From positions 1-46,400 of the forward strand of contig JAAYJV010000059.1 of the NCBI GenBank assembly GCA_012522755.1: 46,400 nt of DNA, read 5' to 3'. Of this stretch, positions 1 through 32,433 are shown piece by piece. Under the pieces are notes generated by a model. It worked only from the letters and a program-made list of their open reading frames with translations, did no database searches and was not told the DNA's origin. Position 1 is the stretch's first letter. Each line of letters starts with the position of its first letter. The position numbers and the translations under genes are program-made. The stretch is from Candidatus Hydrogenedens sp. Lineage in GTDB: Bacteria > Hydrogenedentota > Hydrogenedentia > Hydrogenedentales > CAITNO01.

Positions 1-165
1 ACGGCTTCGCCTTCAATAACGGCTTCGCCTTCAATAACGGCTTCACCTTCAATAACGGCTTCGCCTTCAATAACGGCTTCGCCTTCAATGACGGCTTCGC
101 CTTCGATCACGGCTTCACCTTCTACAGGTTCAACTTCACCCTCACTTTCACCGGAGCAGTTTTCA
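1..165 (-). repeat. EGEAVI linker running off the window edge
   Basis: An 18-bp in-frame repeat encoding E-G-E-A-V-I that starts in the protein after a SEGEVEPV segment and continues past position 1. At least seven units are visible. More protein domains or a C-terminal sorting signal must lie outside the window. Confidence 0.9.
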
Positions 166-3100
166 ATAAATACGCCTAAATAGTCATAAGCCGTATTGCC
201 TGCACCATCTTCTGCCCAGTACAACAGCAAATACAAACCATTCGTGCTGAGCCAGGCAGTCTCGTCCCACCCGAACTCATCTACAAGTGTAGAATTACCT
301 TCTGAATCAACCAAATATATATCGAGAGATACGGGGACAGAACCTTCGCAATAGTCTATGGCCTCTACACTGGCGGGACCAACAACAGCCCAATCGGATC
401 CGCAGTCAACCGTATAAACCCAAAGGTCTGGCTCTATTTCTTCAGCATAAGCGGCATTGTGCTCTATGATAAGCTCTGGCGCGGTAACATCTGGATCACA
501 ATCGTCGTCACCTTCGCCCTCCACAGGTTCAACTTCACCTTCGACAAAGTCCTCGCCTTCGATAAGCTCTTCACCTTCGATCACGGCTTCACCTTCGACA
601 AAGTCCTCGCCTTCGATAAGCTCTTCACCTTCGACAAAGTCCTCGCCTTCGATAAGCTCTTCACCTTCGATGACGGCTTCACCTTCGATGACGGCTTCAC
701 CTTCAATGACGGCTTCACCTTCAATGACGGCTTCACCTTCAATGACGGCTTCACCTTCAATGACGGCTTCACCTTCAATGACGGCTTCACCTTCGATGAC
801 GGCTTCACCTTCGATGACGGGTTCGCCTTCAGCTTCGCCATCGCCATTGTACACCTCTACGTAAGCATAATCTTCATTTTCAACAAGATCACCATTGGGA
901 GTTTTGCCGGCAACCGTTGCAGTATTCAGCACATAACCAGCATCAAGATCCACCTGTGTCACATTATAGGTCGCTGTCAGACTGTTATCCGAGGCACCGG
1001 GAGCAAAACTGGCAATGGTGCCCACAAGGCCTCCCATGAGCGGATCGGTAACTACAATGTCTTCAAGAGTCACATTGCCCGTGTTCTCCACCTTGAAGGT
1101 GTAGACAATCTCATCGCCCACGGCAGAATAGGCAGTACGATCAGTCGTCTTTGTCAGGGCAATCTGGGGAGTCTGAACCGCCGTGACAGTCACACTACCG
1201 GTATTTGTTACGTCATTCCCGTCGGGAGCTTTACCCACCGCCGTCGCAGTGTTTTCAATGTAACCGCGATCAAGATCGCTTTGGACAACCGTGTAGGCCA
1301 CTGTCAAACTGCTATCCGTAGCACCGGGAGTAAGGCTGGCGATTGTGTCTACAAATCCTCCCGTAACCGGATCATTCACAGCAATGTCTTCAACCGTCAC
1401 ATTGCCCGTGTTCTCCACCTCGAAGGCGTAGGTGATTTCATCGCCCACGGCTGCGTAGGACACTCTGTCGGCCGTCTTTGTCAGAGCAAGCCCGGGATTC
1501 TGAACCGCCGCGACAACCACGGTATTGGAATCAGCGGTCACAGCGTTCCCGTCGGGATCCTGCCCCGACACTGTGGCCGTGTTCACAATTTCGCCCGCGT
1601 CAAGGTCCGCTTGGACAACCGTGTAGATCACTGTCAAAGTGTTATCCGTAACACCAGGCGCAAGGCTGGCGATGGTGTTTGCCGGATCGCCGGTTATCGG
1701 ATCGCTCACGGAAATGTCGTAGACCGTCACATTGCCCGTGTTCTCAACCTCGAAAGTGTAGGTGATCTCATCGCCCACGGCAGAATAGGTAGTACGGTCG
1801 ACCGTCTTTGTCAGGGCAAGTCCGGGAGTCTGAATCGTCGTGACAGTCACTATATTGGAATCGGCGGTCACATCGTTCCCGTCGGGACCCTGACCCGCCG
1901 CCGTTGCGGTGTTTTCAATGTAACCGCGATCAAGATCGGCCTGAACAACCGTGTAGGTCACTGTCAGACTATTATCCGCAGCACCGGGAGTAAGGCTGGC
2001 GATGGTGCCCGCGAGACCTCCCGCAAGCGCATCGGTAACGACAATGTCTTCAAGGATCACATTGCCTGTGTTCTCCAACGTAAAGATGTAGACGATCTCA
2101 TCACCCACAGCAGCGTAGGACGCTCTGTCGGCCATCTTCGTCAGGGCAAGCCCGGGAGTCTGAACCGCCGTGACAGTCACTATATTGGAATCATCGGTCA
2201 CAGTGTTTCCGTCGGGATCCTGACCCGTCGCCGTTGCGGTGTTTTCAATGTAACCGCGATCAAGATCGGCCTGAACAACCGTGTAGGCCACTGCCAAAGT
2301 ATTATCGATGGCACTCGGCGTAAGGCTGGCGATGCTGCCTGTCGGATCACCGGTGATCGGATCGCTCACGGAAATGTCGTAGACCGTCACGTTGCCCGTG
2401 TTCTCAACCTCGAAAGTGTATCTGATCTCATCGCCCACTTCTGAGTAGCTGGACACATCTGCCGTCTTCGTCAGGGCAAGTCCGGGAGTCTGAACCGCCG
2501 TGACTGTCACAGTATTGGAATCGGCGATCATGTCGTTCCCCTCGGGATCCTGACCCGACACCGTCGCGGTGTTTTCGATGTAGCCGCGATCCAGGTCGGC
2601 CTGGGCAACTGTGTAGGTCACGGTCAGAGTGTCATCTGTATCACCCGGCGCAAGACTGGCGATACTGCCCACAAGGTCTCCCGTAAGCAGATCATTCACG
2701 GCAATGTCTTCAAGGGTCACGTTGCCCGTGTTCTCCACCGTAAAGGTGTACGTGATCTCATCGCCCTCTTCTGAGAACGTCGTACGATTGGCCGTCTTCT
2801 TCAAAGTGATCGCGGGATTCTGGATCGCCGTGACAGTCACGGTATTGGAATCAGCGGTCACATCGTTTCCGTCAGGAGTTTTTCCCATCGCGATTGCGAT
2901 GTTTTCTACACTGCCTGCATCAAGGTCCGCCAGTACCACTATATAGGTCGCTGTCAAACTGTTATGCGAGTCTCCGGGAGCAAGGCTGGCGATGGTGCCC
3001 ACGATCCCCCCTGTAAGCGGATCGGTAACGGAAATGTCATAGACCGTCACGTTGCCCGTGTTCTCCACCTCGAAAGTGTAGATGATCTCATCGCCCACGG

Positions 3101-6100
3101 CAGCGTAGGACGCTCGGTCGGCCGTCTTCGTCAGGGTAAGCCCGGAAGTCTGAACCGCCTCAACAGTCACACTGTCGGTATCTGTTACGTCATTCCCGTC
3201 GGGATCCTGACCCGACACTGTGGCGATGTTCACAATTTCGCCCGCGTCAAGGTCGGCCTGAACAACCGTATAGGTCACTGTCAGACTGTTGTCCGCAGCA
3301 CCAGGCACAAGGCTGGCGATTGTGCCCACAAGACCTCCCGTAAGCGGATCGCTCACGGCAATGTCTTCAAGGGTCACATTGCCCGTGTTCTCCACCGTAA
3401 AGGTGTACGTGATCTCTTCCCCCGCGGAGGAGTAAGTCGGCACATCGGCCGTCTTTGTCAGGGTAAGCGCAGAAACAACAGTAAAACACTCATAAGCACC
3501 CATGTCGAAGCCTGAACCGTTCGGACGGTGACGGCCCAGGATATCAAAGGAGGGAGCCCCCTCAGAGGTGCCCGTATCAACGCAGGGCGAATTGTACGAT
3601 AACTCCAGATTACCGGGAGCAGCCACAAACAAAGGATCTGCATCAATATTGCCTGTCCCTTCATAGCCGTCCTGAATGCAGCTGTAGGAAACAGTTACAT
3701 CACTATCTGCTCCATTATTGATCTGACCCGGTGAGTTCTCCCAGAGAATACAGTTGATCACCGTCGATGAGGAATTGTTGTTGTACATGCCGACACCGTT
3801 AGCAGAAATATTCGTGGAAGCACTATTTTTCACAAAAGTACAGTTAATCACTGTCGGTGAGGAGTTTTTGTTGTACATGCCGACACCGTTAGCAGTAAAA
3901 CTATCGTCAGCACTATTTTTCACAAAAATGCAGTTGGTCACCGCCGGTGAGGAATTGTTGTTGTACATGCCAACACCGTGAGCAGAAATACTATCGTGAA
4001 CACTATTTTCTCTAAAAGCGCAGTTGGTCACCGTCGGTGAGGAATTATCGTTGTACATCCCGCCACCGTATGCCTGACTCAAAACACCTTTGCCAGCAGC
4101 AATATTTTCCACAAAAGTACAGTTAATCACTGTCGGTGAGGAATTGTTGTTATACATCCCGCCACCGTATTGTGCATAGCCACGGGTAATGGTAAAGCCG
4201 TCCAGGGTCGTATCATTGGCTCCATTGACACAGCGCCACAGGCCTTCCCCATCAATTGCGGTAAAGTGATTTTGCACGTCCCTTTCTTCAAAAAAACTTT
4301 CCGTCCCTGCAAAACCGCCGTATAGGGCAACACCCTCTCTCATGGTCAGTACGGGATCGCCGGTGCCGGTGTAAGTGCCTGCTGCGATCCACAGCTCACC
4401 GCCACCAGCGTCATGAACAGTATCCACAGCAAGCTGCAGGTCAGAATAGGCATTTTCCCAGCTTGTGCCGTCAGGATCGGATGCAGTGCTGGCGACATTC
4501 ACATAATAGACAACTGGCTGAAAATGGGCCACAACTGTTTTGTCATCATCCATGAGAAGGGGCACCGAGCTGTTTTCACCGGAAAGATCACCGCTCCAAT
4601 GGCTGAAGGAAGCACCATAATTCCCGTAAGCACTCAGCTGAACGGTATCTCCTCGGTTATAAACATGGCTTCCTGCAGGCGGCTCTGTTCGTCCGAAAAC
4701 AGGAGGATAACATTGGATTGTCAAAGTACATTCATCTACAGGCTCTTCACCTTCTACAGGCTCTTCACCTTCTACAGGCTCTTCACCTTCAACAGGCTCT
4801 TCACCTTCAACTGACTCTTCACCTTCTACAGGCTCTTCACCTTCTACAGGCTCTTCACCTTCTACAGGCTCTTCACCTTCTACGGGCTCTTCTCCTTCTA
4901 CAGGCTCTTCTCCTTCAACTAACTCTTCGCCTTCTATAGGCTCTTCGCCTTCAACAGACTCTTCACCTTCAACAGACTCTTCGCCTTCAACAGGCTCTTC
5001 ACCTTCGTCGTCCCCGTCATAGTATTCATAAGCACCCATGTCAAAGCCGTTGCCATTAGGGCGAGGCCGTCCCAGAATATCCGTATCCGGTGCGCCGTCA
5101 GGAGTTCCCGCATCAATGCAGGGTGAATTGTAAGACAACTCCAGATTGTTTGGAGCAGCCACAAACAAAGGATCAGCAGCTATATTGCCGGTGCCTTCAT
5201 AACCGCCCCGGATACAGCTATAGTAAACAACGGGATTGCTGTCCGAGGAATTGTGAATTTCATGGGACATGTTCTCCCAGAAAATACAGTTCGTCAAGGT
5301 CGGCGAGGACCCCCACCAGTTACCCATCCCGCCGCCCCAGGAAGAGGAGGGAGTCGTATTCCCCGAAAAAGTACAGTTCGTCAACGTTGGAGAGGATGAA
5401 TTAGCGTTAAGTATGCCGCCTCCACTTGAAAACGCCGTATTTGACGTAAAACAGCAATTCGAGACCGTCGGAGAGGAATAAGAATTTCCCATTCCGCCGC
5501 CATCATGGGAAGCCCTATTTTCCGTAAAGCTGCAGTGGGTTACCATCGACGAGGAGTTGTCATAGTTATACATCCCGCCACCTGCCTTAGCCGTATTTCC
5601 CCTAAAGCTGCAGTTCGTTACCGTCGGAGAGGAATCCCAATTTCTCATCCCGCCGCCGGCGCCGCCCGCCATATTTCCAAAAAACGTGCAGTTGGTCACC
5701 ATAGGTGAGGAATAATGGTTCTCCATCCCGCCGCCTTGGCCGGGAGCCGTATTTCCCGTAAAAGTACAGTTAGTCAACGTTGGCGAGGATTCAAAATTAT
5801 ACATCCCGCCGCCGGACGCATCAGTCGTATTTTCCGCAAAGCTGCAGTTCGTCACCGTCGGCGAGGATTCAAGATTATACATCCCGCCGCCCTCGGCGGA
5901 AGAGTATCCTCGCTTAACGGTAAAGCCGTCCAGCAAAGCATTATCTGCACCAACGACGCAACGCCGCTCCTCTTCCCCGTCAATTACCGTTACATTCGTT
6001 TCGCAATCCCGCTGATCGCGCTCCGTTTCATTACCTGCAAAGCCGCCATAGAGAGCGACCCCTTCTTTCATGGTGAGTACGGGATTGCCGGTGCCGGTGT

Positions 6101-9100
6101 AGGTACCAGCGGCAACCCAGACTTCACCGCCGCCACTGGCAACCGCTGTATCCACGGCACACTGTAAATCAGGGAAGGCAGTCGTCCAGCTGCGCCCATC
6201 CGGGTTGGGAGCAATACTGGCGGCATTCACATAATAAACAATCTCTCCTTCGCCTTCACCTTCCCCTTCATCCTCTCCTTCACTTTCGCCTTCGATGAGG
6301 GCCTCGCCTTCAATTACAGGTTCACCTTCAAAAACAGGTTCTCCCTCAACTACAGGTTCTCCTTCGATCACGGGTTCTCCTTCAAAAACAGGCTCACCTT
6401 CAATGACGGGTTCTCCTTCAAAAACAGGCTCACCTTCAACGACGGGTTCTCCCTCAACAACGGGTTCTCCCTCAACGACGGGTTCTCCCTCAACGACGGG
6501 TTCTCCCTCAACGACGGGTTCTCCCTCAACAACGGGTTCTCCTTCAACAACGGGTTCTCCCTCAACAACGGGTTCTCCTTCAACAACAGGCTCACCTTCA
6601 ACAACGGGTTCTCCTTCAAAAACAGGCTCACCTTCAACGACGGGTTCTCCCTCAACGACGGGTTCTCCTTCAAAAACAGGCTCACCTTCAACGACGGGTT
6701 CTCCTTCTAAAACAGGCTCACCTTCGATCACGATTTCACCTTCAAAAACAGGTTCACCCTCAACTGGCTCTTCCCCGGCGAAGCCACTCAGGTTGACGAG
6801 AACAGACGGAGTATTTCGGTCGCTGCTGAGAATTTGAACCTGGCTCGTGTAAGCACCATCACGGAAGGGTGTAAACACGACATCGAATACAACAGACTCT
6901 CCGGGAGCAAGCTTACAGGGCAATTCAGGAAAGTCCTCCAGGAAAAATCCAGGGTGGGCGTTAAGCAGAGCAGCTTCCAGATTCAAACGTCCACCGGCAG
7001 ATACCAAGTACTCCCACTGTGACAGTGGTGTCACATTGTCCAGAAGTAAAGCCTTTACTTCTTCTCCGCCAGCATGGGGATTTGCAGACAGAAGCAATGC
7101 CGCCGCTCCGGTCACATAGGGCGCAGCCAAGGAAGTCCCACTGTCATAAGCGTATCCACTCCCGGGAATTGTGCTCAGGATATCAGTACCAGGCGCTGCA
7201 AGATGAACTGAAGCAAAACCATAATTGCTGAAAGAAGATCTGTTGTCCCTGTTGTCGGAACTTGCAACAGCGATAACATTGGCACAGGTATAATTAGATG
7301 GATAATGGGGAGTGGTATCATTGTTTGTGCTGTCATTACCGGCGGCGGCCACAAACAGTTGTCCGGCTTCTGCAGCCGTTTCAATCATGGCTCTGAGAGC
7401 AGCGTTTTCCGCTCCGCCCCCCCAGGAATTGTTTGTAAGCTGTGCTCCGTGGTCAATGGCATATTCCAAAGCAGAAATGGCATCAACGGTCCAACCTGTG
7501 CCGTCGGAATCCAGGAATTTAAGTGCCATGAGTTTTACAGTCCAATTCACCCCTGCAACGCCAATACCGTTATTGCCAACGGCGCCAATGATGCCTGCAC
7601 AGAGCGTTCCGTGACTGTGGTCATCCATGGGATTGTTACTGGTTACCCGGCCGTCACCATCGGTCCAACAGGCTCCATGAATATCTCCGAAGATCGGCGA
7701 TGGATTGACCCACATATTATCCGCCAGATCCTCATGATTATAATCTATCCCTGTGTCAATGACGGCAACAATCACTTCGCTGTTTCCCGTGTGAATATCC
7801 CAGGCGTTCAAGGCGCCTATATCCGCACCAGGCGTACCGCCACTCTGACCCGTATTGTGCAATCCCCACAATACATTGAATCTGGGATCATCAGGCATTT
7901 TATTGATGTGGCAGACATAGTTGGGACAGGCATAAAGCACCCCGGGCTGCCGTTCATAAGCCGCAATTGCCTCTTCCAAATTGGTTCCCGCAGAAAATTC
8001 AACAACATCTGCATCAATACGATGGTACTGATGGAGCATTTGTGCATTCATGGCCTTATGCACGGCGGCTTTGTCAGTGCTTTTAACTGCGGAGTCAAAG
8101 CCGACAATCAGCTGGTCGGCCTTATGTTGTTTCGTCAGATCCGGTGGGAACGATATATTCTTTCCGCTATGGATACGCTTTGTTTTTTTACTGTCATGCT
8201 GGTTTCCTGCACTCCTGATCATCTCCAACCCGGTAATTTCCAGATCGTATGTGGGACATGTATTCTGAACAGTGATCTGCTCGCACCGAGACGAGCCGAG
8301 AGCAAGGGTTCCAAAGGGCATGTTCAAGTCATCAGCAGGGTCTATGGAATCTTCCACCCGGATGGTACCGGGTATGGGAAGCACTGTCAGAGTCCCCGTA
8401 CCCAAAACAGAATTGCCGCTGTCCTGATTGATAAAACTGAAATCAAAAGGATAGATATCCGCTGAAAGGGTGTCTGCGATACTGTTGTTCAGTTCCAGAG
8501 TCACTTCCACTGAAGTCCTGGCGGACAAAGTACCGGCAGGGGGATTTGCCGTGATGAATGAAGGTAATGCTGCTGTGCTCCAAGTCAACACAGAATTGCT
8601 TTGGTTGTGCACCGTATATGTCTTTGAGTCAGGCGAGAAAGGCCCGCCTTCATAGCCCCGGGATATAAATTCCTCTTCCGGAGATACCTGCATAGGATCA
8701 TCGGGAACAAAAGTGACCTGGTCCACCCAACCACAGTCAGAACCGCGGTTGACAGAATAATCCTTTGCGTACACCCAACTGATAACACTTCCCTCATCCA
8801 CCTCTAAAGACACAAAACTCCAGTCTCTTTCGCCAGAAATAGCACTCTCACTGCGACCATCGACAGAAAAAGTCAGCCAATCATAATTTGACTCAGATGA
8901 CACACGCCACCAGAAACTGAGCAAACCGGATTGCGGACAAGTGAAAGACAGTCTGGAGTTCTGGTTATGGGAAATACAGCCGCTGCGGGCCGCATCCTCA
9001 CCATCATGGGATTCTCCCTGTTTACCAATCCAGGACATATCTCCACCCGTCTCCCAGAAAAGATCCTCATTATCCAGGGCTTCACTTAAATCAACATCGG

Positions 9101-12100
9101 CAACACAACTTTCATCAAAATCAATTCTTAATTGATAGGTTCCCCTCTCATTCCTGTAACCGGCTATACGGATATAATAAGGTATTCCAGCGGTCAGATG
9201 GATAAAAAGCTCCGAAGCACAGCTGTGCCCGAAAGAGCAATTGCCATCATCGTTACACGCCACTTCTATGAGATTATCGCAATCGCCTGTGAAAACGGAC
9301 AATGATGTATCAAAATCACTGCCGCATAAAGATATCTCATACTCTCCATCATATTGAGGTTCAAAGACATACCATACGTCCGCATGATCTCCGTGCGTAC
9401 AGGAACTGATATCCGTGCCTGTGGCTCCAACGGTTGAACCCGTTACTGTCACACGCGGCACAACTTGTATGGCATCTTCACAAAGATCATTTTCCAACAA
9501 TTCCCCTTCGCCTTCCACCGGCTCTTCGCCCTGATCCGTGGCAGAACCACTGAGGTTTACGAGAACGGTCGGGGTATTTCGATCGCTGCTGAGAATTTGA
9601 ACCCGGCTCGTGAAAGATCCGGAAATTTGTGGCCTGAACACGACATCGAAGACCAGGGATTCTCCGGGAGCAAGTCTATAGGGCAATTCAGGCAAATCTT
9701 CGAATAAAAATCCAGGTTGGGCGTTGAGCAGAGCAGCTTCCAGATTCAGGCGACCACCTGTAGCGACAAGGGTTTTCCATTGTGGTAATGGTGTCACATT
9801 ATCCAGAAGAATTGCTTTCACTTCTTCGCGACCCGCACAGGGGTTTACCGCCATGAACAATGCAGCCGCTCCGGCCACATGGGGCGCCGCCATGGATGTC
9901 CCGCTCTTATAGGCATAACCGTTTCCGGGGATTGTGCTCAGGATATCAGTACCAGGCGCTGCAAGATCTACGGAGGCAACACCATAATTGCTGAAAGAAG
10001 ACCTGTTATCCCTGTTATTGCTACTGGCAACCGCGATAATATTGGGACAGGTATAATTGGAGGGATAATGAGGCCTGGTATCATTATTTGTGCTGTCATT
10101 ACCGGCGGCGGCGATAAACAGTTGTCCCGCATCAGCCGCGGTTTCAATCATGGCTTCGAGCGCAGGATTGCCCGTATCTCCTCCCCAGGAATTGCTTGTA
10201 AGGTGTGCTCCGTGATCAATGGCATATTCCAAGGCGGCAATGGCATCCGCGTCTGTACCGCTCCCATTGGACCTCAAAAATTTGAGTGCCATAAGTTTCA
10301 CATCCCAGTTCACTCCTGCAACGCCGATACCGTTGTTGCCAACGGCACCAATGGTGCCCGCACAGTGTGTTCCGTGACTGTGGTCATCCATGGGGTTGCC
10401 ACTGGTTACCCGGCCGTTGCCATCGGTCCAACGGGCCCCGTGAACATCTCCGAAGGTCGGCGATGGATTGACCCACATATTGTCGGCCAAGTCTTCGTGA
10501 TTATAATCTATCCCTGTATCAATGACAGCGACGATGATTTCACTGTTTCCCGTGTGAATATCCCAGGCGTTCAAGGCGCCTATATCCGCCCCGGGTGTGC
10601 CAGAGCTCTGACCCGTGTTGTGCAATCCCCACAATGCACTGAATCTGGGATCATCAGGTGTTTTATTGATGGTATAAACATAGTTCGGACAGGCATACAG
10701 CACACCGGGCTGCTGTTCATATGACGCAATTGCCTCTTCCAGATTGGTTCCCGCAGAGAATTCAACGACATCGGCATCAATACGGTGATACTGATGGAGC
10801 ATCTGCGCATTCATGGCCTTATGCACAGCGGCTTTGTCTGTGCTTTTGACTGCTGAGTCAAAGCCGATAATCAGCTGGTCCGCTTCATGTTGTTTCGTCA
10901 AATCCGGTCGGTACGGTACATCATTTCCACTATCAGTACGCGTTAATACTTTACTGTCATTTTGGCTGAGCCAGGATCCGATCATCTCCAAACTGGTAAT
11001 TTCCAGATCGTGTGCGGGACAGATATTCTGAATCGTGACCTGCTCGCGCCGAGACGAGCCAAGGGCAAGAGTTCCGAAGGGCATGTTCAAGTCATCAACA
11101 GGGTCTATGGAGTCTTCCACCCGGATAATGCCGGGTATGGGAAGCACTGTCAGAGTCCCCGTACCCAAAACAGAATTGCCACTGTCCTGATTGATAAAAC
11201 TGAAATCAAAAGGATAATTGTCCGCTGAAAGGGTATCTGCGACACTGTTGTTCAGATCAAGAGTCACTTCCACTGAAGCAAGGGCCTCCAGTGTTCCGGA
11301 AGCGGGAGTTGCCATAATAAATCCGGGCAATGTTCCTGTCGACCAAGTCAGAACCGCATCGCCCTGGTTGAACAAAGTATATGTCTTTGAGTCTGGCGAA
11401 AAGGGTCCGCCTTCATAACCCCCGGAAATAAATTCCTCCTCAGGAAAGATCTGTAAATCATCATCGGGAACAAAGGCAACTTCGTCCACCCAACCGCAAT
11501 CAGAACCTCTGCTGACAGAATAATCCTTTGTATACTCCCAACTGATGATTGAGCCCTTGTCCACTCGTAACGATTGAAAAATCCAATCCTTTTCACCGGA
11601 AATAGAGCTCTCACTGCGACCATCGACAGAAAAAGTCAGCCAATCATAATTTGACTCAGATGACACGCGCCACCAGAAACTCAACAGACCGGACCGGGGA
11701 GAAGTGAAAGACAGTCTGGAGTTCTGGTTGTGGGAAATACAGCCACTGCGGGCCGCATCTTCACCATCATGGGATACATCCTGTTTACCAATCCAGGACA
11801 GATTTCCACCCGTCTCCCAGAAAAGATTTTCATTGTCCAGGGCTTCACTTAAATCAACATCGGCAACACAACTTTCATCAAAATCAATTCTTAATTGATA
11901 CCACCCCATATCATCCCGATAGCCGGCTATGCGGATATAATAGGGTATGCCGGCAACCAGATCGATAAAAAGCTCCGAAGCATAGATATTTCCCGGATCG
12001 TCTTCGCCGTCGGAACTGTAACTGCTGCTATACCCGCAATTACCATCGTCATTACAGGCAACTTCCGTCAGATTGTCACAATCGCCTGTGAAGACAGATA

Positions 12101-13730
12101 ATGATGTATCAAAATCACTGCCGCATAAAGATATCTCATGCTCTCCATCATATTGAGGCTCAAATAAAAACCATACGTCCGCATTGTCCTCGTAAGTACA
12201 GGAACTGATATCAATACCCGTGGCTCCAACGGTCGAGCCTGTTACTGTCACACCTGTCACAACCTCTATGGCATTTTCACAAAGGTCATTTTCTACGAGT
12301 CCTCCTTCCCCTTCCACCGGCTCTTCGTATTCCCCTTCCACCGGCTCTTCGTATTCCCCTTCATAAGGATATTCACCTTGCGGATCGGAACCGTCCATGC
12401 CCGTCACCCCTGAATTGACAGGATCAAGCCAATTACTCAAACGGGTGGAAGCGCTTCCTCCGCCCTCCCAGCTCTTCCAGACCTTTCCATACCAGTCGGA
12501 GCTGTTGTTGGAACAAGACGCATATCCGCCATGAAGCTGCCCCACTATCCGATGAGTTTGGGAATCCCAAAGCCCCGATCCGGAAGAACCCGGCTCCGTA
12601 GTACCGCTGTTCCATGCAACAACGCGCCAGTGGTTTGCATCTGTATAGATGGATGTTCCTAAATAGCTCGTGCTTTGTAAAGGAGTATTGTCAAAGCTGA
12701 TCGCCTTTTCATCGGCATTGGGGTGATGGATGGCAACGGATTCCAATACGCCTGCATTAGAACGATCCCATCCGGCATAGTACACATCGAAGGAAGGTGA
12801 CGGACTCTGTGCAAGTTCCAAGAGTGTGAAATCCGATGCATTATGGGTAGCGCGCAAGATGGCACCGCTCTGATATTGGTTCAGAAAACCACCGCCCAGC
12901 TGCCCGCAAGTCGGAGATTCATAATTCCAATAGACAACAACGGATGAAGCATCGGATTCACTGCTTACACAATGATGGGCTGTAAGAAAATAATTCCTGA
13001 AGTCCGCCCGAGTGTTCATAATAAGTGTACCCGTACAGGCATAACCACCGCCGTATGTGTAACGGGCTACACTGCGAATCTCATCACGCCAGTCATCAGC
13101 AACCGGACAGATTACATCGTTATTGCAACTCCCTTGCATAATACCGACGAAACCCCGGGCGAAAAGATCACGATATCCACTTCCCACAACACCAACGGTC
13201 AAGGAAAATTCCTTCACTTCGACTTGTAGCATCCTCGCCTCCAAAAGAAGAAATTCCCCGGGAAGAACAGGGGTCCACAACTGGCGTGTCGGGCCATTAT
13301 CAGAGAAAGTATAGGCCTCCAGTTCATGGTTCTTATCCACGGAAGATACCATCAAACTGGCACTTTTGGGTAAATAAAAATCCGTAAACCCTATGTTGAT
13401 ATCTGTGGCACCGGGTGCGTTGACGTAGAGATGCCAGACCGCCCATTCCCGATCAAAAGGTTCCCAGATACCGTACTCTTCGCATGACGCCTCGGTATGA
13501 AAGGGTTCTGCGAACTGAAAGACCTTCTCCGCCACAGGATCGAAGCTTTTGTCTCTGGCCAGAAGACTCTTCTGATCAATCCCGGGGACTTCCAGAATCG
13601 GGATGCCCGCACCGGGAACCCATTCGTCAGCCATTGCATGGGAGGCGACCATCAGCAGAAGGGTTACCATGAGAAAAAAGGATGAAACAACAAAACAATC
13701 TGAACTTTTTATCAATGACTTTAGCATCAT
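1..13730 (-). CDS. Giant secreted multidomain protease/adhesin-like protein (3' end beyond window)
   Basis: One open frame of at least 4576 codons runs from ATG 13730 (ATG 13727 follows directly) to position 1 with no stop seen; it is partial at the C-terminus. GGGAG lies 8 nt before the start. Order by approximate residue: signal peptide 1-34 (cleavage after A-M-A); lysyl-endopeptidase-like S1 protease 210-437 (H253, D300, S383); short EGEYEEPV linker; first PPC-like, MAM-like and S8 block 478-1340 (D1071, H1119, S1279); second copy to about 2315 (D1992, H2040, S2200); EGEPVV linker 2317-2495; beta-helix 2497-2900; EEPVEG linker 2907-3000; InlB-like repeat; beta-helix 3075-3415; eight DUF11-type repeats to about 4285; EGEAVI linker; Ig/HYR-like domain 4412-4525; EGEAVI linker. 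It is probably exported and surface-attached or released, degrading proteins outside the cell; the attachment signal is not in view. Family calls are from motifs; function is inferred. Confidence 0.93.
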   Translation of the reverse strand, partial: MMLKSLIKSSDCFVVSSFFLMVTLLLMVASHAMADEWVPGAGIPILEVPGIDQKSLLARDKSFDPVAEKVFQFAEPFHTEASCEEYGIWEPFDREWAVWHLYVNAPGATDINIGFTDFYLPKSASLMVSSVDKNHELEAYTFSDNGPTRQLWTPVLPGEFLLLEARMLQVEVKEFSLTVGVVGSGYRDLFARGFVGIMQGSCNNDVICPVADDWRDEIRSVARYTYGGGYACTGTLIMNTRADFRNYFLTAHHCVSSESDASSVVVYWNYESPTCGQLGGGFLNQYQSGAILRATHNASDFTLLELAQSPSPSFDVYYAGWDRSNAGVLESVAIHHPNADEKAISFDNTPLQSTSYLGTSIYTDANHWRVVAWNSGTTEPGSSGSGLWDSQTHRIVGQLHGGYASCSNNSSDWYGKVWKSWEGGGSASTRLSNWLDPVNSGVTGMDGSDPQGEYPYEGEYEEPVEGEYEEPVEGEGGLVENDLCENAIEVVTGVTVTGSTVGATGIDISSCTYEDNADVWFLFEPQYDGEHEISLCGSDFDTSLSVFTGDCDNLTEVACNDDGNCGYSSSYSSDGEDDPGNIYASELFIDLVAGIPYYIRIAGYRDDMGWYQLRIDFDESCVADVDLSEALDNENLFWETGGNLSWIGKQDVSHDGEDAARSGCISHNQNSRLSFTSPRSGLLSFWWRVSSESNYDWLTFSVDGRSESSISGEKDWIFQSLRVDKGSIISWEYTKDYSVSRGSDCGWVDEVAFVPDDDLQIFPEEEFISGGYEGGPFSPDSKTYTLFNQGDAVLTWSTGTLPGFIMATPASGTLEALASVEVTLDLNNSVADTLSADNYPFDFSFINQDSGNSVLGTGTLTVLPIPGIIRVEDSIDPVDDLNMPFGTLALGSSRREQVTIQNICPAHDLEITSLEMIGSWLSQNDSKVLTRTDSGNDVPYRPDLTKQHEADQLIIGFDSAVKSTDKAAVHKAMNAQMLHQYHRIDADVVEFSAGTNLEEAIASYEQQPGVLYACPNYVYTINKTPDDPRFSALWGLHNTGQSSGTPGADIGALNAWDIHTGNSEIIVAVIDTGIDYNHEDLADNMWVNPSPTFGDVHGARWTDGNGRVTSGNPMDDHSHGTHCAGTIGAVGNNGIGVAGVNWDVKLMALKFLRSNGSGTDADAIAALEYAIDHGAHLTSNSWGGDTGNPALEAMIETAADAGQLFIAAAGNDSTNNDTRPHYPSNYTCPNIIAVASSNNRDNRSSFSNYGVASVDLAAPGTDILSTIPGNGYAYKSGTSMAAPHVAGAAALFMAVNPCAGREEVKAILLDNVTPLPQWKTLVATGGRLNLEAALLNAQPGFLFEDLPELPYRLAPGESLVFDVVFRPQISGSFTSRVQILSSDRNTPTVLVNLSGSATDQGEEPVEGEGELLENDLCEDAIQVVPRVTVTGSTVGATGTDISSCTHGDHADVWYVFEPQYDGEYEISLCGSDFDTSLSVFTGDCDNLIEVACNDDGNCSFGHSCASELFIHLTAGIPYYIRIAGYRNERGTYQLRIDFDESCVADVDLSEALDNEDLFWETGGDMSWIGKQGESHDGEDAARSGCISHNQNSRLSFTCPQSGLLSFWWRVSSESNYDWLTFSVDGRSESAISGERDWSFVSLEVDEGSVISWVYAKDYSVNRGSDCGWVDQVTFVPDDPMQVSPEEEFISRGYEGGPFSPDSKTYTVHNQSNSVLTWSTAALPSFITANPPAGTLSARTSVEVTLELNNSIADTLSADIYPFDFSFINQDSGNSVLGTGTLTVLPIPGTIRVEDSIDPADDLNMPFGTLALGSSRCEQITVQNTCPTYDLEITGLEMIRSAGNQHDSKKTKRIHSGKNISFPPDLTKQHKADQLIVGFDSAVKSTDKAAVHKAMNAQMLHQYHRIDADVVEFSAGTNLEEAIAAYERQPGVLYACPNYVCHINKMPDDPRFNVLWGLHNTGQSGGTPGADIGALNAWDIHTGNSEVIVAVIDTGIDYNHEDLADNMWVNPSPIFGDIHGACWTDGDGRVTSNNPMDDHSHGTLCAGIIGAVGNNGIGVAGVNWTVKLMALKFLDSDGTGWTVDAISALEYAIDHGAQLTNNSWGGGAENAALRAMIETAAEAGQLFVAAAGNDSTNNDTTPHYPSNYTCANVIAVASSDNRDNRSSFSNYGFASVHLAAPGTDILSTIPGSGYAYDSGTSLAAPYVTGAAALLLSANPHAGGEEVKALLLDNVTPLSQWEYLVSAGGRLNLEAALLNAHPGFFLEDFPELPCKLAPGESVVFDVVFTPFRDGAYTSQVQILSSDRNTPSVLVNLSGFAGEEPVEGEPVFEGEIVIEGEPVLEGEPVVEGEPVFEGEPVVEGEPVVEGEPVFEGEPVVEGEPVVEGEPVVEGEPVVEGEPVVEGEPVVEGEPVVEGEPVVEGEPVVEGEPVVEGEPVFEGEPVIEGEPVFEGEPVIEGEPVVEGEPVFEGEPVIEGEALIEGESEGEDEGEGEGEGEIVYYVNAASIAPNPDGRSWTTAFPDLQCAVDTAVASGGGEVWVAAGTYTGTGNPVLTMKEGVALYGGFAGNETERDQRDCETNVTVIDGEEERRCVVGADNALLDGFTVKRGYSSAEGGGMYNLESSPTVTNCSFAENTTDASGGGMYNFESSPTLTNCTFTGNTAPGQGGGMENHYSSPMVTNCTFFGNMAGGAGGGMRNWDSSPTVTNCSFRGNTAKAGGGMYNYDNSSSMVTHCSFTENRASHDGGGMGNSYSSPTVSNCCFTSNTAFSSGGGILNANSSSPTLTNCTFSGNTTPSSSWGGGMGNWWGSSPTLTNCIFWENMSHEIHNSSDSNPVVYYSCIRGGYEGTGNIAADPLFVAAPNNLELSYNSPCIDAGTPDGAPDTDILGRPRPNGNGFDMGAYEYYDGDDEGEEPVEGEESVEGEESVEGEEPIEGEELVEGEEPVEGEEPVEGEEPVEGEEPVEGEEPVEGEESVEGEEPVEGEEPVEGEEPVEGEEPVDECTLTIQCYPPVFGRTEPPAGSHVYNRGDTVQLSAYGNYGASFSHWSGDLSGENSSVPLLMDDDKTVVAHFQPVVYYVNVASTASDPDGTSWENAYSDLQLAVDTVHDAGGGELWIAAGTYTGTGDPVLTMREGVALYGGFAGTESFFEERDVQNHFTAIDGEGLWRCVNGANDTTLDGFTITRGYAQYGGGMYNNNSSPTVINCTFVENIAAGKGVLSQAYGGGMYNDNSSPTVTNCAFRENSVHDSISAHGVGMYNNNSSPAVTNCIFVKNSADDSFTANGVGMYNKNSSPTVINCTFVKNSASTNISANGVGMYNNNSSSTVINCILWENSPGQINNGADSDVTVSYSCIQDGYEGTGNIDADPLFVAAPGNLELSYNSPCVDTGTSEGAPSFDILGRHRPNGSGFDMGAYECFTVVSALTLTKTADVPTYSSAGEEITYTFTVENTGNVTLEDIAVSDPLTGGLVGTIASLVPGAADNSLTVTYTVVQADLDAGEIVNIATVSGQDPDGNDVTDTDSVTVEAVQTSGLTLTKTADRASYAAVGDEIIYTFEVENTGNVTVYDISVTDPLTGGIVGTIASLAPGDSHNSLTATYIVVLADLDAGSVENIAIAMGKTPDGNDVTADSNTVTVTAIQNPAITLKKTANRTTFSEEGDEITYTFTVENTGNVTLEDIAVNDLLTGDLVGSIASLAPGDTDDTLTVTYTVAQADLDRGYIENTATVSGQDPEGNDMIADSNTVTVTAVQTPGLALTKTADVSSYSEVGDEIRYTFEVENTGNVTVYDISVSDPITGDPTGSIASLTPSAIDNTLAVAYTVVQADLDRGYIENTATATGQDPDGNTVTDDSNIVTVTAVQTPGLALTKMADRASYAAVGDEIVYIFTLENTGNVILEDIVVTDALAGGLAGTIASLTPGAADNSLTVTYTVVQADLDRGYIENTATAAGQGPDGNDVTADSNIVTVTTIQTPGLALTKTVDRTTYSAVGDEITYTFEVENTGNVTVYDISVSDPITGDPANTIASLAPGVTDNTLTVIYTVVQADLDAGEIVNTATVSGQDPDGNAVTADSNTVVVAAVQNPGLALTKTADRVSYAAVGDEITYAFEVENTGNVTVEDIAVNDPVTGGFVDTIASLTPGATDSSLTVAYTVVQSDLDRGYIENTATAVGKAPDGNDVTNTGSVTVTAVQTPQIALTKTTDRTAYSAVGDEIVYTFKVENTGNVTLEDIVVTDPLMGGLVGTIASFAPGASDNSLTATYNVTQVDLDAGYVLNTATVAGKTPNGDLVENEDYAYVEVYNGDGEAEGEPVIEGEAVIEGEAVIEGEAVIEGEAVIEGEAVIEGEAVIEGEAVIEGEAVIEGEELIEGEDFVEGEELIEGEDFVEGEAVIEGEELIEGEDFVEGEVEPVEGEGDDDCDPDVTAPELIIEHNAAYAEEIEPDLWVYTVDCGSDWAVVGPASVEAIDYCEGSVPVSLDIYLVDSEGNSTLVDEFGWDETAWLSTNGLYLLLYWAEDGAGNTAYDYLGVFIENCSGESEGEVEPVEGEAVIEGEAVIEGEAVIEGEAVIEGEAVIEGEAVIEGEA
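166..519 (-). other. Ig/HYR-like domain of the giant protein
   Basis: About 115 residues between two EGEAVI linkers, beginning CDPDVTAPELIIEHN and ending YDYLGVFIEN, with several Cys. The opening TAPELII and the all-beta pattern with WAEDGAGNTAYDY resemble HYR/Ig-like domains of extracellular proteins. The assignment is by pattern only. Confidence 0.55.
520..835 (-). repeat. In-frame 18-bp minisatellite encoding EGEAVI / EGEELI / EGEDFV linker
   Basis: About 18 hexapeptides. A run of E-G-E-A-V-I units is followed in the protein direction by alternating E-G-E-E-L-I and E-G-E-D-F-V units (a 36-bp higher-order repeat) before the Ig/HYR-like domain. Confidence 0.9.
880..3480 (-). repeat. Eight tandem DUF11-type repeats (327-330 bp each)
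   Basis: Eight consecutive in-frame repeats of 109-110 codons. The shared element around FTVENTGNV recurs at 3388, 3061, 2731, 2401, 2071, 1741, 1411 and 1084, so spacing is 327 or 330 bp throughout. Each unit reads roughly LALTKTADRxSY, GDEITYTFEVENTGNVTV, IASLAPG, VVQADLDRGYIENTATV, DGNDVT. This is the DUF11/DUF7507-like Ig fold of bacterial surface proteins, usually a stalk. Very even length suggests ongoing homogenisation. Confidence 0.9.
3490..4732 (-). other. Divergent InlB-like repeat plus beta-helix domain 2
   Basis: Within the giant gene. A stretch of about 70 residues (GDTVQLSAYGN, FSHWSGD, KTVVAHF) has the pattern of divergent InlB B-repeats. A second beta-helix follows, built like the first: YYVNVAS start, ALYGGFAG cap, five turns of the form G(G/V)GMYNxNSSPTVINC, and a choice-of-anchor-Q-like end (DILGRHRP, DMGAYE). 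Confidence 0.82.
4733..5012 (-). repeat. In-frame 18-bp minisatellite encoding EEPVEG linker
   Basis: About 15 hexapeptides of E-E-P-V-E-G with E-E-S-V-E-G variants separate beta-helix 1 from the InlB-like repeat. The consensus differs from the other linkers of the same protein, so each array seems to have been homogenised separately. Confidence 0.9.
5030..6240 (-). other. Right-handed beta-helix domain 1 with choice-of-anchor-Q-like end
   Basis: Within the giant gene. It begins with YYVNAAS and continues with a conserved cap (GGEVWVAAGTYTG, ALYGGFAG). Eight turns of a roughly 26-residue repeat follow, each built as GGGMxN, SSPTVTNC, then F and N positions. It ends in a segment from DPLFV to DMGAYE that resembles choice-of-anchor Q proteins. 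Such helices often bind polysaccharide or serve as stalks; the role here is unknown. Confidence 0.85.
6243..6776 (-). repeat. In-frame 18-bp minisatellite encoding EGEPVV/EGEPVF linker
   Basis: About 28 hexapeptides of the form E-G-E-P-V-(V/F/I) separate the second S8 copy from the first beta-helix. The DNA period is 18 bp. Variants differ at the sixth residue and at wobble positions, as expected from slippage and unequal exchange. The linker is acidic and low in complexity, and probably acts as an extended spacer. The opposite strand stays open and gives spurious Ser/Pro/Thr-rich frames. Confidence 0.9.
6947..8122 (-). other. Subtilisin-like S8 protease domain, copy 2, with I9-like prodomain
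   Basis: Second copy within the giant gene. Each catalytic residue (D1992, H2040, S2200) lies exactly 921 residues after its counterpart in copy 1. The His motif reads HGTLCAG instead of HGTHCAG, and the Ser motif reads GTSLAAPYVTG instead of GTSMAAPHVAG. The triad and the AAAGND Asn are kept, but the second, normally conserved His of HGTH is Leu. It may be active with altered properties. Confidence 0.9.
9710..10885 (-). other. Subtilisin-like S8 protease domain, copy 1, with I9-like prodomain
   Basis: Domain within the giant gene. It opens with an inhibitor-I9-like segment (from LIIGFDSAV to CPNYV). The S8 core follows: AVIDTGID (D1071), HGTHCAG (H1119), AAAGND (oxyanion Asn) and GTSMAAPHVAG (S1279). 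The motifs are complete, so it should be an active subtilase. A beta-sandwich segment beginning near LAPGESLVFDV follows before the EEPVEGEG linker. Confidence 0.92.
12420..13100 (-). other. Lysyl-endopeptidase-like S1 serine protease domain
   Basis: Domain within the giant gene. Visible motifs are TAHHC (catalytic H253), ASDFTLLEL (D300) and EPGSSGSGLWD (nucleophile S383), plus VVYWNYESPTC, AIHHPNADEK, GQLHGG and RLSNWLDP. These match the Achromobacter lysyl endopeptidase (protease I) family closely in order and spacing, so cleavage after lysine is a reasonable guess. The 170 residues before it resemble the propeptide region of that family. All three catalytic residues are present. Confidence 0.88.
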
Positions 13731-13740
13731 ACCTAATTCT

Positions 13741-14279
13741 CCCATATTTATATGAAATTCAGAGAGTCATATTTTGATAATTATACGCACGCACACGACT
13801 TATTGCAAGTGATACGACGCTTCTATAAAACCGAATATGACAAAAAACAGTAATCCGCTTCTTAAAATATTTTTGTATAATATATGAAATGAAGTTTTTC
13901 CGGTTTCGTTTCTTCCCCACTCGCAAAAAATACCGGTCGTTCCCACGATTGGTTCAGAAAAAACGAACTTTATCCAGCCAAAAAAACAACAAGGAAAAGT
14001 CGACAGGAGGTGTTCTTTCGAGATCGACTTTCAGATATAAGGAAAAAGAAGGATATGAAAAAGACTACAAAGTTTTTTTTCATGTGCAGAGATACCGTTA
14101 TGATGTCGCTGTTCTTCAGCAAAATAATCAGACATTTTTAAAATATTCAATTAAGGAGTATCTTCAAGCTTCAATCTGAAAAAGCCTGTGTTTGCTTTGT
14201 CAGCCAATTATATTGATACAATACCTTTATCTGCTTCGTTTATTTTCTAATTTATTTAACCCATCGAGAGAGTGGTCCC
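13741..14279. other. AT-rich intergenic region between the giant gene and the 14.3-kb operon
   Basis: Noticeably richer in A/T than the flanking genes. It holds the minus-strand promoter described separately, a plus-strand TATAAT at 13876-13881 with no good -35 box, and a 28-codon frame at 14055 preceded by AAGG (start MKKTTKFFFM). An open frame at 13889-14179 is Lys/Arg/Phe-rich and unlike a conserved protein. I see nothing here that is clearly a gene. Confidence 0.5.
13780..13808 (-). promoter_or_regulatory. Sigma70-type promoter of the giant protease gene
   Basis: On the minus strand a TTGCAA (-35, 13808-13803) and a perfect TATAAT (-10, 13785-13780) are separated by 17 bp. Transcription would start near 13773, giving a leader of about 43 nt that contains the GGGAG ribosome site before ATG 13730. 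This supports the chosen start. Confidence 0.7.
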
Positions 14280-27123: not shown

Positions 27124-27732
27124 ATGTGTGCACATAGTAAACATCTCCCCGCCAAGGAACGGCGATTGGTAACAGTCAAGACCGTCGTCGAGTTGGCGGG
27201 AGAACAAAACCCAAGTGAAATCACCACAGCGGCCATTGCCGAACGCATGGGTTTGACCCAGGGTGCTCTCTTCCGCCATTTTGCCAATAAAGAAGCCATT
27301 TTACAGGCCGTTATGGAATGGGCCGGAGCACATTTGATGGCTCGCATCGAAAAAGCCGTTGCCAAACAGTCTCCCCCTTGTGCTGCTCTGGAGAGCATGT
27401 TTATGGCCCATGTAGATTTTATAGTAAAGCATCCCGGTATTCCCCGCATGCTCTTTGGAGAACTGCAAGGGTCCGAAGAAACGGCACCCAAACAAATGGC
27501 TCAAAAACTTATCAGTCGCTATGGGGCACTGCTCAACAATTTATTTGAAAAGGGGAAAAGTGACGGTGACATTGATCCTGATCTCGACAATGGGACAGCG
27601 GCCACGCTTTTCATCGGAACCATTCAAGGGCTGGTCATGCAATCACTTATAGATGGTGATGTGAGTCAGATGCAGACCAATGCGCCAAAAGTCTTCGCCA
27701 TCTATCTTCGTGGCATAAGGAGTACATCATGA
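27124..27732 (+). CDS. TetR/AcrR family transcriptional regulator
   Basis: 202 residues. The N-terminal helix-turn-helix reads EITTAAIAERMGLTQGALFRHFANKEAIL (about residues 33-62), followed by an all-helical ligand-binding domain with HPGIPRMLFGEL, typical of AcrR-type regulators. ATG 27124 has AAAGG 7 nt upstream; a nearby ATG at 27119 is out of frame. It overlaps the adaptor gene (ATGA), so regulator and pump are one transcript, and it probably represses its own promoter until an effector binds. Confidence 0.93.
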   Translation: MCAHSKHLPAKERRLVTVKTVVELAGEQNPSEITTAAIAERMGLTQGALFRHFANKEAILQAVMEWAGAHLMARIEKAVAKQSPPCAALESMFMAHVDFIVKHPGIPRMLFGELQGSEETAPKQMAQKLISRYGALLNNLFEKGKSDGDIDPDLDNGTAATLFIGTIQGLVMQSLIDGDVSQMQTNAPKVFAIYLRGIRSTS

Positions 27733-28880
27733 AAAGACTTCCTTTCCAGAAGCGTACTTTGGCACTCATAGCCATTCTTCTCCCTCTTCTGGCACTCTTT
27801 ATTCATGTGACCCTTCGATCCGGCCCCCTCGCACCTGTTTCTGTTGTGCTGGCTACAGTAGAAAATAAAAGCCTCTCCCCTTCCCTCTTTGGCATCGGAA
27901 CAGTTGAGGCCCGCTACACCTACAAGATAGGCCCTACCGCCGCCGGGCGGGTGAAAGTTCTGGAAGTGCAGGTGGGTGAGAATGTTGAGGCTGGGCAAGT
28001 ATTGGGTGAAATGGACCCTGTAGATCTTGATGAGCGTATCAAAGTTCAAGATGCCACCGTAAAGCGCGTGGAAGCGCAGTTGAAGGAAGCACAGACACGC
28101 AAAGAGTATGCCCAGACCCAAACTTTACGTTACGAACAATTACTCGAAGTGCGTTCCACCAGTGAGGAAGAACTGCTCAGTAAAAAACAGGACCTCCGGA
28201 TTGCAGAAGCAGGATTAACGGCAACGAGAGAAGAACTCGCACGCGTACGAGCCGAAAGAGAGGTCCTGGAATCACAACGAAAAGACTTGTTGCTGATCTC
28301 TCCAGTGGACGGTCTGGTGGTTTCTCGTGACGTTGAGCCGGGAACCACTGTGGTCGCCGGTCAGAGTGTTATAGAACTCATTGATCCAAGCTCCATCTGG
28401 GTTAATGTCCGCTTCGATCAGATCCGTGCGCATGGACTCCGTGTTGATTTACCGGCCCATATCCGATTGCGATCCCAGCCAGATCATATTCAGCCCGGAC
28501 ATGTTCTCAGAATTGAACCTCTGGCCGACGCTGTGACAGAAGAGATACTTGCCAAAGTTGTCTTTCAGCAAATCCCTGATCCTCTGCCGCCTATAGGCGA
28601 GCTGACGGAAATCACCCTTACTCTGCCCACCCTGGAAGAAGCACCTGTTGTTCCCAACGCAGCCATTCACCTCATAGATGGGCGCATGGGTGTTTGGCTG
28701 GTTACAGACGATGCCCTGCATTTTACACCCATTACTCCGGGCATTGCTGATTTGGATGGTCAGGTGCAGGTGCGAGATGGCCTCCAGGCTGGTGATCAAA
28801 TCGTTGTTTACAGTGAACATTCCTTGCACAATTACAGCCGAATCCAAGTCGTTGAAAACATTCCGGGAGTAATCTCATGA
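27729..28880 (+). CDS. HlyD/DevB-like periplasmic adaptor (membrane fusion protein)
   Basis: 383 residues. One N-terminal membrane helix (about 10-28), then the lipoyl half motif (YTYKIGPTAAGRVKVLEVQVGENVEAGQ), a coiled-coil hairpin (about 100-190, rich in E, K, Q and L), the second lipoyl half (LLISPVDGLVVSRDVEPGTTV) and a beta-barrel domain. This is the adaptor linking an inner-membrane ABC transporter to an outer-membrane factor. It overlaps both the TetR gene and the permease gene through ATGA junctions. Confidence 0.93.
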   Translation: MKRLPFQKRTLALIAILLPLLALFIHVTLRSGPLAPVSVVLATVENKSLSPSLFGIGTVEARYTYKIGPTAAGRVKVLEVQVGENVEAGQVLGEMDPVDLDERIKVQDATVKRVEAQLKEAQTRKEYAQTQTLRYEQLLEVRSTSEEELLSKKQDLRIAEAGLTATREELARVRAEREVLESQRKDLLLISPVDGLVVSRDVEPGTTVVAGQSVIELIDPSSIWVNVRFDQIRAHGLRVDLPAHIRLRSQPDHIQPGHVLRIEPLADAVTEEILAKVVFQQIPDPLPPIGELTEITLTLPTLEEAPVVPNAAIHLIDGRMGVWLVTDDALHFTPITPGIADLDGQVQVRDGLQAGDQIVVYSEHSLHNYSRIQVVENIPGVIS

Positions 28881-30082: not shown

Positions 30083-30083
30083 T

Positions 30084-30794
30084 ATGGTCAATAAAGGTAT
30101 TCGTATAGAAGGATTAAAAAAGACCTATGGCAGCGGCGATACAGCTGTTGAGGCCTTGAAATCAGTAGACATGTACGTTGCTCCGGGCGAAGTGGTGGGT
30201 CTCATAGGACCTTCAGGTTCGGGCAAGAGCACACTCCTGAAATGTCTGGGAGCGGTCATTGAGCCTACGGCCGGGAAAATGGTTCTCGGTGATGACGTCA
30301 TTTATGACGATGCCTGGAAAGTCAGAGACCTCCGCGCCTTGCGAAGAGATCGCATCGGTTTTGTGTTTCAGGCGCCCTACCTGATTCCCTTTCTCGACGT
30401 CACCGACAATGTCGCCCTGCTCCCCATGCTGGCAGGCGTGCGTAATGGCGATGCGCGCAAACGTGCCATGGAGTTATTCGAAGCGCTGGAAGTGGAACAT
30501 CGTGCCAAAGCCATGCCTTCGCAGCTTTCCGGAGGAGAACAGCAACGGGTGGCCATTGCCCGGGGATTGGTCAATCGTCCTCCGGTGATTCTTGCCGATG
30601 AACCGACAGCGCCTCTGGACAGTGATCGTGCTCTGGCTGTCATCCAGATACTCAATGATATGGCGAAAAAATACGAGACCGCCATTATTGTAGTGACCCA
30701 CGATGAAAAGATCATTCCGACTTTCAAACGCATTTATCACATCCGTGACGGCGTGACTTATGAAGAAGAAGGTGAAGGGCGTGCCATTGAATAA
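30084..30794 (+). CDS. ABC transporter ATP-binding protein (DevA/LolD/MacB type)
   Basis: 236 residues. Walker A is GPSGSGKST (about 43-51), the Q-loop is FVFQAPYLIPFLDV, the signature is LSGGEQQRVAIAR, Walker B is VILADEPTAPLDS and the H-loop is VVTHDEK. The Walker B segment has TAPLD where TAALD or TGNLD is usual, but catalytic E is kept. GGAGG lies 5 nt before ATG 30084, which is one base after the permease stop. It powers the permease; cytoplasmic. Confidence 0.95.
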   Translation: MVNKGIRIEGLKKTYGSGDTAVEALKSVDMYVAPGEVVGLIGPSGSGKSTLLKCLGAVIEPTAGKMVLGDDVIYDDAWKVRDLRALRRDRIGFVFQAPYLIPFLDVTDNVALLPMLAGVRNGDARKRAMELFEALEVEHRAKAMPSQLSGGEQQRVAIARGLVNRPPVILADEPTAPLDSDRALAVIQILNDMAKKYETAIIVVTHDEKIIPTFKRIYHIRDGVTYEEEGEGRAIE

Positions 30795-30842
30795 ACGCTA
30801 TCCAGATCAAACATTCAGAAATATTCCTCAAGGAATCTTGAT

Positions 30843-32345: not shown

Positions 32346-32363
32346 GATGCCAGGTTGCGGCAA

Positions 32364-32393
32364 TTGAATAGAATTCGCTTTTGTCGTTACAAT
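32364..32393 (+). promoter_or_regulatory. Sigma70-type promoter of the GH38-like gene
   Basis: TTGAAT (32364-32369) and TACAAT (32388-32393) are 18 bp apart. The start site would be near 32400, which supports ATG 32434 as the true start and excludes the longer frame from 32392. Confidence 0.6.
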
Positions 32394-32433
32394 GGTTAAA
32401 ACTTACTTCAGAAATATAACGAAAGGACTTTTC

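Follow-up and report, generated by a model that had tools for sequence, protein, structure and literature searches.

In the window, which is the whole stretch of 46,400 nucleotides that was analysed, a giant minus-strand gene encodes one S1 and two S8 serine-protease domains in a single chain, and profile comparisons showed that each S8 unit, made up of prodomain and protease, interrupts a beta-sandwich domain of the ASH (HYDIN) type at one place. From the sequence we infer a multi-enzyme protein of very large size, which is probably secreted and would present one lysine-type S1 protease and two subtilases socketed in ASH domains, the subtilases being cut at the prodomain junction yet held together. 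The probability of this reading is put at about 40%. If it is true, enzymes would be attached to long extracellular proteins by a natural plug and socket, in which a zymogen sits in an Ig-like loop and one site accepts different guests. This would also account for a self-cleaving protease remaining on its stalk despite the cut in its backbone, and would offer protein engineers an insertion-tolerant host.

Residue numbers start at the ATG at position 13730. The features are as follows.

3..13745 (-), open frame of the giant protein, 4581 aa, ATG start, cut off at the contig end
13626..13730 (-), signal-peptide-like N-terminus, residues 1-35 (by eye)
13137..13625 (-), N-terminal region of the S1 unit, residues 36-198, conserved among S1 relatives
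12381..13136 (-), S1 domain of the Achromobacter protease I type, residues 199-450 (Pfam on the segment, PDB sequence match, triad)
12297..12380 (-), acidic linker A, residues 451-478
11130..12296 (-), front part of module A, residues 479-867, three domains, named PPC-like, GBD-like and BACON-like by eye
10974..11129 (-), N-terminal half of ASH domain A, residues 868-919 (joined-half score, ASH model)
10626..10898 (-), prodomain A, Fervidolysin type, residues 945-1035, mature S8 beginning at about 1024 (Pfam)
9711..10625 (-), S8 domain A, residues 1036-1340 (Pfam, PDB match, structure model)
9537..9710 (-), C-terminal half of ASH domain A, residues 1341-1398 (joined-half score, ASH model)
9495..9536 (-), acidic linker B, residues 1399-1412
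8367..9494 (-), front part of module B, residues 1413-1788, a copy of the module A front
8211..8366 (-), N-terminal half of ASH domain B, residues 1789-1840 (joined-half score, ASH model)
7863..8135 (-), prodomain B, residues 1866-1956 (Pfam)
6948..7862 (-), S8 domain B, residues 1957-2261 (Pfam)
6774..6947 (-), C-terminal half of ASH domain B, residues 2262-2319 (joined-half score, ASH model)
6243..6776 (-), acidic linker C with 18-bp repeats, residues 2319-2496
5016..6242 (-), beta-helix 1 with choice-of-anchor-Q end, residues 2497-2905 (Pfam, NCBIfam)
4731..5015 (-), acidic linker D, residues 2906-3000
4515..4730 (-), InlB-B-repeat-like segment, residues 3001-3072 (PF18998 at 22.9 bits, just below the cut-off of 23.6)
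3474..4514 (-), beta-helix 2, residues 3073-3419 (NCBIfam)
852..3473 (-), eight DUF11/DUF7507 repeats, residues 3420-4293 (Pfam, NCBIfam)
510..851 (-), acidic linker E, residues 4294-4407
156..509 (-), domain without Pfam match, residues 4408-4525, with relatives on contig C161
3..155 (-), acidic repeat F, residues 4526-4576, cut by the contig end

The Pfam scan of the whole protein returned two S8 domains (2.3e-110), two Fervidolysin-type prodomains, a beta-helix and DUF7507 in 8 stretches, and the DUF11 repeat model of NCBIfam also matched in 8 stretches. The frame and these profile matches confirm the preliminary description, which had reported one minus-strand frame joining S1, two S8 domains, beta-helices, eight DUF11-type repeats and acidic linkers. 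The beta-helices and the DUF11 repeats could plausibly form a stalk or serve in binding. The domains in the front part of the modules gave Pfam matches below the cut-off only (GBD_T9SS_assoc in the PPC-like domain and BACON_2 in the third one).

Giant proteins with beta-helices, DUF11 and EGE repeats were also seen on contigs C131, C160, C61, C192, C159, C113, C26 and C161 of the same genome (loci L133-L140), in which a beta-helix/DUF11/EGE-repeat query had 84 matches. The acidic-tailed proteins of this genome ended either in a GC[NG]C-membrane-RR arrangement (L137, L138, L142) or in a dockerin-like segment terminating in CW (L133, L134), both labelled by eye. The scanned members of both kinds had no NCBIfam match, and the dockerin-like one had no Pfam match; possibly these C-termini represent two unnamed sorting signals.

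The three proteases and their processing

The S1 domain was missing among the 18 Pfam families listed for the whole protein. When the segment was scanned alone, Trypsin_2 (4.1e-9) and Trypsin were found above their cut-offs. The whole catalytic domain (residues 199-449) aligned with Achromobacter protease I, the lysyl endopeptidase (PDB 1arb, 4nsy; 1.4e-66), with the triad kept (H253/D300/S383, placed by motif). Among the residues which we take to form the lysine pocket of that enzyme, Asp225 and His210 are retained (D412 and H400), and Trp169 is replaced by Tyr356. The window S1 is predicted to be a Lys-type protease which, unlike Achromobacter protease I, shares its chain with S8 modules and a long stalk. 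The residue preceding GSCN is Met198 in the window and Lys in 22 of the 34 other S1 rows, that of contig C109 included. Because Met replaces the usual Lys here, the activation of the window S1 itself is in doubt and may differ. In the relatives L094 and L095, the frames start with a Cys-rich, somatomedin B-like segment where S1 would stand (PF01033, E 0.0027, below the cut-off; L094 scanned).

Both S8 domains matched the Pfam S8 family and were adjoined on the N-terminal side by a prodomain resembling Fervidolysin_NPro. Motif placement gave intact triads for the first (D1071/H1119/S1279, oxyanion Asn 1180) and the second copy (D1992/H2040/S2200, oxyanion Asn 2101), so that the earlier statement of intact catalytic triads in all three protease domains was borne out. 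The best S8 match was the subtilase of deseasin MCP-01 (PDB 3vv3), with about 315 residues aligned at 3.2e-87. Unlike in MCP-01, prodomain and S8 interrupt an ASH domain in the giant protein, and this occurs twice per chain.

Subtilases usually process themselves at the junction of prodomain and S8. In the giant protein this junction coincides with the start of mature MCP-01, and it is variable among relatives. Each S8 would mature by a cut at the junction, here within the socket. The ASH domain would hold the enzyme sideways on the rod and leave both ends of the chain free for further domains. The cut would sever the backbone, and the paired ASH halves would keep the S1 part and the part with S8 and stalk together. 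The S1 protease may help to mature S8. The whole could act as an extracellular protein-degrading machine, to which the stalk would lend reach or binding.

It is also conceivable that the prodomain is never cut. The nested unit of prodomain and S8 would then function without cleavage, and the ASH socket would do no more than position it. In some mycosins the unit of prodomain and protease works uncut, and the T7SS mycosin model was the best NCBIfam match of S8, though below its cut-off (239.9 vs 278.75). The conservation of both prodomain and S8 (dN/dS of the prodomain between modules A and B, 0.106) would suit an uncut unit as well. However, the junction sits where mature MCP-01 begins and varies among relatives as a cut linker would, and an uncut prodomain is considered rather unlikely.

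The preliminary description had favoured self-processing, that is a polyprotease which frees separate enzymes by cuts in the acidic linkers between the domains. Three intact triads in one chain and repeat linkers between the blocks are what such a protein would have. However, not a single Lys or Arg occurred in the 480 residues of the six acidic linkers, whereas the composition of the remaining protein would predict 7.6 Lys; this absence is partly trivial in few-letter repeats. A Lys-type S1 should not cut linkers without Lys or Arg. Other proteins of the same genome have similar acidic tails, and where examined their frames carried neither S1 nor S8. Release of the enzymes by linker cuts is unsupported by these data and appears improbable. 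In the socketed protein proposed here, the acidic linkers would serve as spacers that resist proteolysis rather than as sites of processing.

All three S1-fused copies, which read INK(T/M), carried Lys two residues ahead of the PDDP start of S8, and so did 1 of the 11 unfused S8 frames fitting the search pattern (L100). As the three fused copies descend from one ancestor, this lysine is a lead only. A depletion of lysine as a sign of co-evolution with S1 was rejected: the Lys fraction of the modules was 0.0206 and 0.0219 in the window and 0.0360 in C109, compared with 0.0202-0.0228 in three S1-free relatives.

Prodomain-S8 units within split ASH domains

The whole-protein Pfam scan gave ASH/HYDIN matches only in short stretches directly behind each S8. 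When the two halves flanking the protease were joined without it, nearly the whole ASH model (PF15780, cut-off 27) was matched, with 34.2 bits for ASH A and 38.6 bits for ASH B. The ASH A halves alone scored 13.3 and 17.8 bits. Since each of them falls below the Pfam cut-off, such domains are overlooked when giant proteins are read as simple successions of domains. In contrast to the ASH/HYDIN family itself, the domain is split here, with about 415 residues of prodomain and protease between its halves. The two joined ASH domains of L094 likewise exceeded the cut-off (33.0 and 35.1 bits). The S8 domains are present as first described but are not strung one after another with their neighbours: each interrupts an ASH domain, and both are copies of one module.

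An ASH model was trained on seven joined domains (two from the window, one from C109, two each from L094 and L095) and run over 606 frames. Beyond the training set, ten pairs of separated halves were found (three in L143, two in L097, and one each in L096, L100, L145, L147 and L149). The C-terminal half began at model position 46-54 of 113 in all ten, and the N-terminal halves ended at 40-64. The guest was S8 in L096 and a LamG-like domain in the other nine. Unsplit domains were matched as well, 11 in all (eight in L146, one each in L144, L147 and L148), and L040 gave one weak partial match. The numbers of split and unsplit domains do not give a frequency, because the loci were picked by matches to S8, S1 or ASH queries. 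In the 7674-aa frame of genome G027 (L103/L104, G027:C1, about 44545-67566), six C-terminal and two N-terminal halves were over the threshold and the remaining N-terminal halves were recognised by eye; this frame carries at least six interrupted ASH domains with several different inserts. A pattern search for ASH returned 2 stretches, neither of which matched the ASH model, and a search of viral contigs yielded no relative of the S8 module.

For a structure model, 25 rows were aligned. A pattern search for relatives had given 46 stretches, with 37 usable S8 rows besides L047, of which 22 were used together with L047 and the two window rows. AlphaFold2 returned a mean pLDDT of 76.4 and a pTM of 0.68, with values mostly of 72-88 in the prodomain, mostly above 90 in the S8 core and of about 36-65 per ten-residue block in the ASH halves. 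The predicted model supports the S8 fold; the sandwich is not settled by it.

The split could be a misreading, the S8 units merely adjoining two unrelated partial domains, as the whole-protein Pfam scan displays only the C-terminal part of ASH and the sandwich lacks confirmation from the structure model. However, joined halves exceeded the ASH cut-off in all four cases tested (A and B of the window and the two of L094), the ten pairs beyond the training set are split at one place, and unsplit copies exist, which makes a misreading very improbable.

Other guests and hosts

The 18 inserts other than prodomain-S8 fell into three families when compared by BLAST, 13 being LamG-like, two nidogen-like (both from G027) and three Rossmann-like; these names were given by eye. 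PF06439 was above its cut-off in 1 of 3 LamG-like members scanned, and the best PDB sequence match had an E value of 0.51. No Pfam match was obtained for the two nidogen-like members scanned. The Rossmann-like guest had no match in Pfam (one member), in NCBIfam (4 members) or among PDB sequences (best E 0.39). It was located as follows.

L094 ORF, residues 1050-1273, Rossmann-like domain
L095, residues 1065-1274, Rossmann-like domain
G027 protein, residues about 2420-2640, Rossmann-like domain
L102, residues about 1280-1470, Rossmann-like domain

Its hosts are the second ASH domain of L094 and L095 and a BACON-like domain in G027. A BACON profile of the window and its relatives matched only from position 21-32 of 99 onwards behind S8 (L097, L100, L102), and with the same late start behind the Rossmann-like guest (G027, L102, L143, L144, L148). 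The short pieces that precede the guests look like BACON starts by eye (L097, L100, L102, G027), and the S8 of G027 was assigned to its BACON host in the same way. BACON-like domains thus appear to be split like ASH. BACON-like pieces were also found behind nidogen-like inserts in G070 (via the record of L031), where S8 is N-terminal and un-nested, and in L071, L098, L099 and L101, S8 lies near the frame start without a detected host.

Both ASH and BACON-like hosts carry S8 and, in other cases, the Rossmann-like guest, so that host and guest may have been exchanged independently. It is a tentative and still doubtful generalisation that ASH and BACON-like beta-sandwiches are general sockets of giant secreted bacterial proteins, with a fixed loop taking unrelated plug-ins (subtilase with prodomain, Rossmann-like, LamG-like and nidogen-like domains). 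The socket would then also be the clamp for the subtilase, which could activate itself by cutting its chain and yet stay attached, and in this lineage a fused Lys-type S1 would have become its activator.

Duplication, origin of the fusion and integrity of the frame

Modules A and B were 82.3% identical over 2754 bp of DNA, and their identities to C109 were 73.6 and 73.4%, respectively. Over 908 codons, the amino acid identity between A and B was 0.817, with dN 0.111, dS 0.579 and dN/dS 0.191. The ratio was 0.157 for S8 alone and 0.202 between A and C109. Constraint between A and B was weakest in the linker from the ASH N-terminal half to the prodomain (dN/dS 0.62, 27 codons). Codon comparison showed that the block around S8 was tandemly duplicated and that both copies are under purifying selection; given the low dN/dS, both protease copies are apparently used.

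The window spans, from end to end, contig C22 of genome G000 (4.0 Mb, 199 contigs, estimated 95% complete). Among 941 frames from the fetched loci, 90 contained S1, 34 contained S8 and 2 contained both, namely the giant gene and a partial paralogue on contig C109 of the same genome (1454 aa, S1 and one ASH-nested S8 block); some of the loci had short flanks, so that a distant S8 could escape. Within this search the combination of S1 and S8 in one polypeptide was as unusual as had been supposed (2 of 90 S1 frames). The S1 search found a match in 49 of 60 relatives, the own genome included, and the S8-module search in 48 of 68 phylum genomes. When the lists were compared by eye, S1 and S8 occurred on one contig in G000 alone, 8 of the 68 phylum genomes lying outside the S1 search. 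Genome G001 of the same genus had no S8-module match and a weak S1 match only. In the 21 genomes behind the named S1 loci, no S8 match among those listed reached the ASH end of the query (best end 429 of 454).

S1 domains of the Achromobacter protease I type were present in 64 of 147 genomes from the class of G068 (the Thermoanaerobaculia record), with up to 58% identity, and S8 was found in the S1 frame in none of 15 stretches from this set, 13 of them around the longest S1 frames. In a tree of 64 S1 rows, a fully supported branch separated the window pair from 27 rows of its own phylum and placed it with rows from other groups. S1 was probably acquired from outside the phylum; this falls short of proof because the named rows had been retrieved using peptides of the window, a choice that favours close relatives. 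In a Lysobacterales genome (L047:2701-6761), an S8 frame directly adjoins a frame with an S1 of this type, the two being in different frames.

A survey of prokaryotic serine proteases (PMC2605481) describes S8 with PPC, CARDB, DUF11 and other partners; in the parts consulted, no combination of S1 and S8 is named, and the main text never mentions 'ASPM'. No account of the architecture was found in the open-access literature on domain insertion, on ASH, BACON and subtilase, on lysyl endopeptidase and subtilisin, on nested domains, or on the suspected phylum, Hydrogenedentota. The component families are known and the arrangement is new.

The frame has no internal stop across 4581 codons and is open at the contig end. 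As so long a frame carries highly significant domains and duplicated modules at a dN/dS of 0.19, it is real and more than chance. The longest exact repeat within the gene was 89 bp (none at 99), and a comparison of the gene with 12 further stretches fetched from the genome gave a common word of 25 bases, with none at the next tested length of 31. From these comparisons a mis-join inside the gene looks unlikely. That repeat linkers falsely joined separate genes is hardly credible: several 18-bp repeat linkers do lie inside the frame and the contig terminates in one, but the S1-S8 join is seen again on contig C109, the exact repeats in the gene stay below 99 bp, no 31-base word is common with the other stretches, and all joins are in frame. 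The part from beta-helix 1 to the contig end comes from the single contig C22.

Position 1 is an assembly end, and an 18-bp tandem repeat spans 1-122; the gene is truncated because the contig ends within this repeat. When the own genome was searched for a continuation past position 1 with a degenerate pattern of the end repeat, the pattern matched its own contig only. Contig C161, which carries relatives of the last domain, was rejected as the continuation, as it has its own start and a separate gene. At the opposite contig end, exact 123-bp repeat copies overlap in 46177-46388 and are the likely cause of the assembly break there. Elsewhere in the window (27124-35841 and 40252-42729), a TetR regulator, a MacB-type permease and an outer-membrane efflux protein are followed by a GH38-like gene and a GH123-like gene, the latter on the minus strand.
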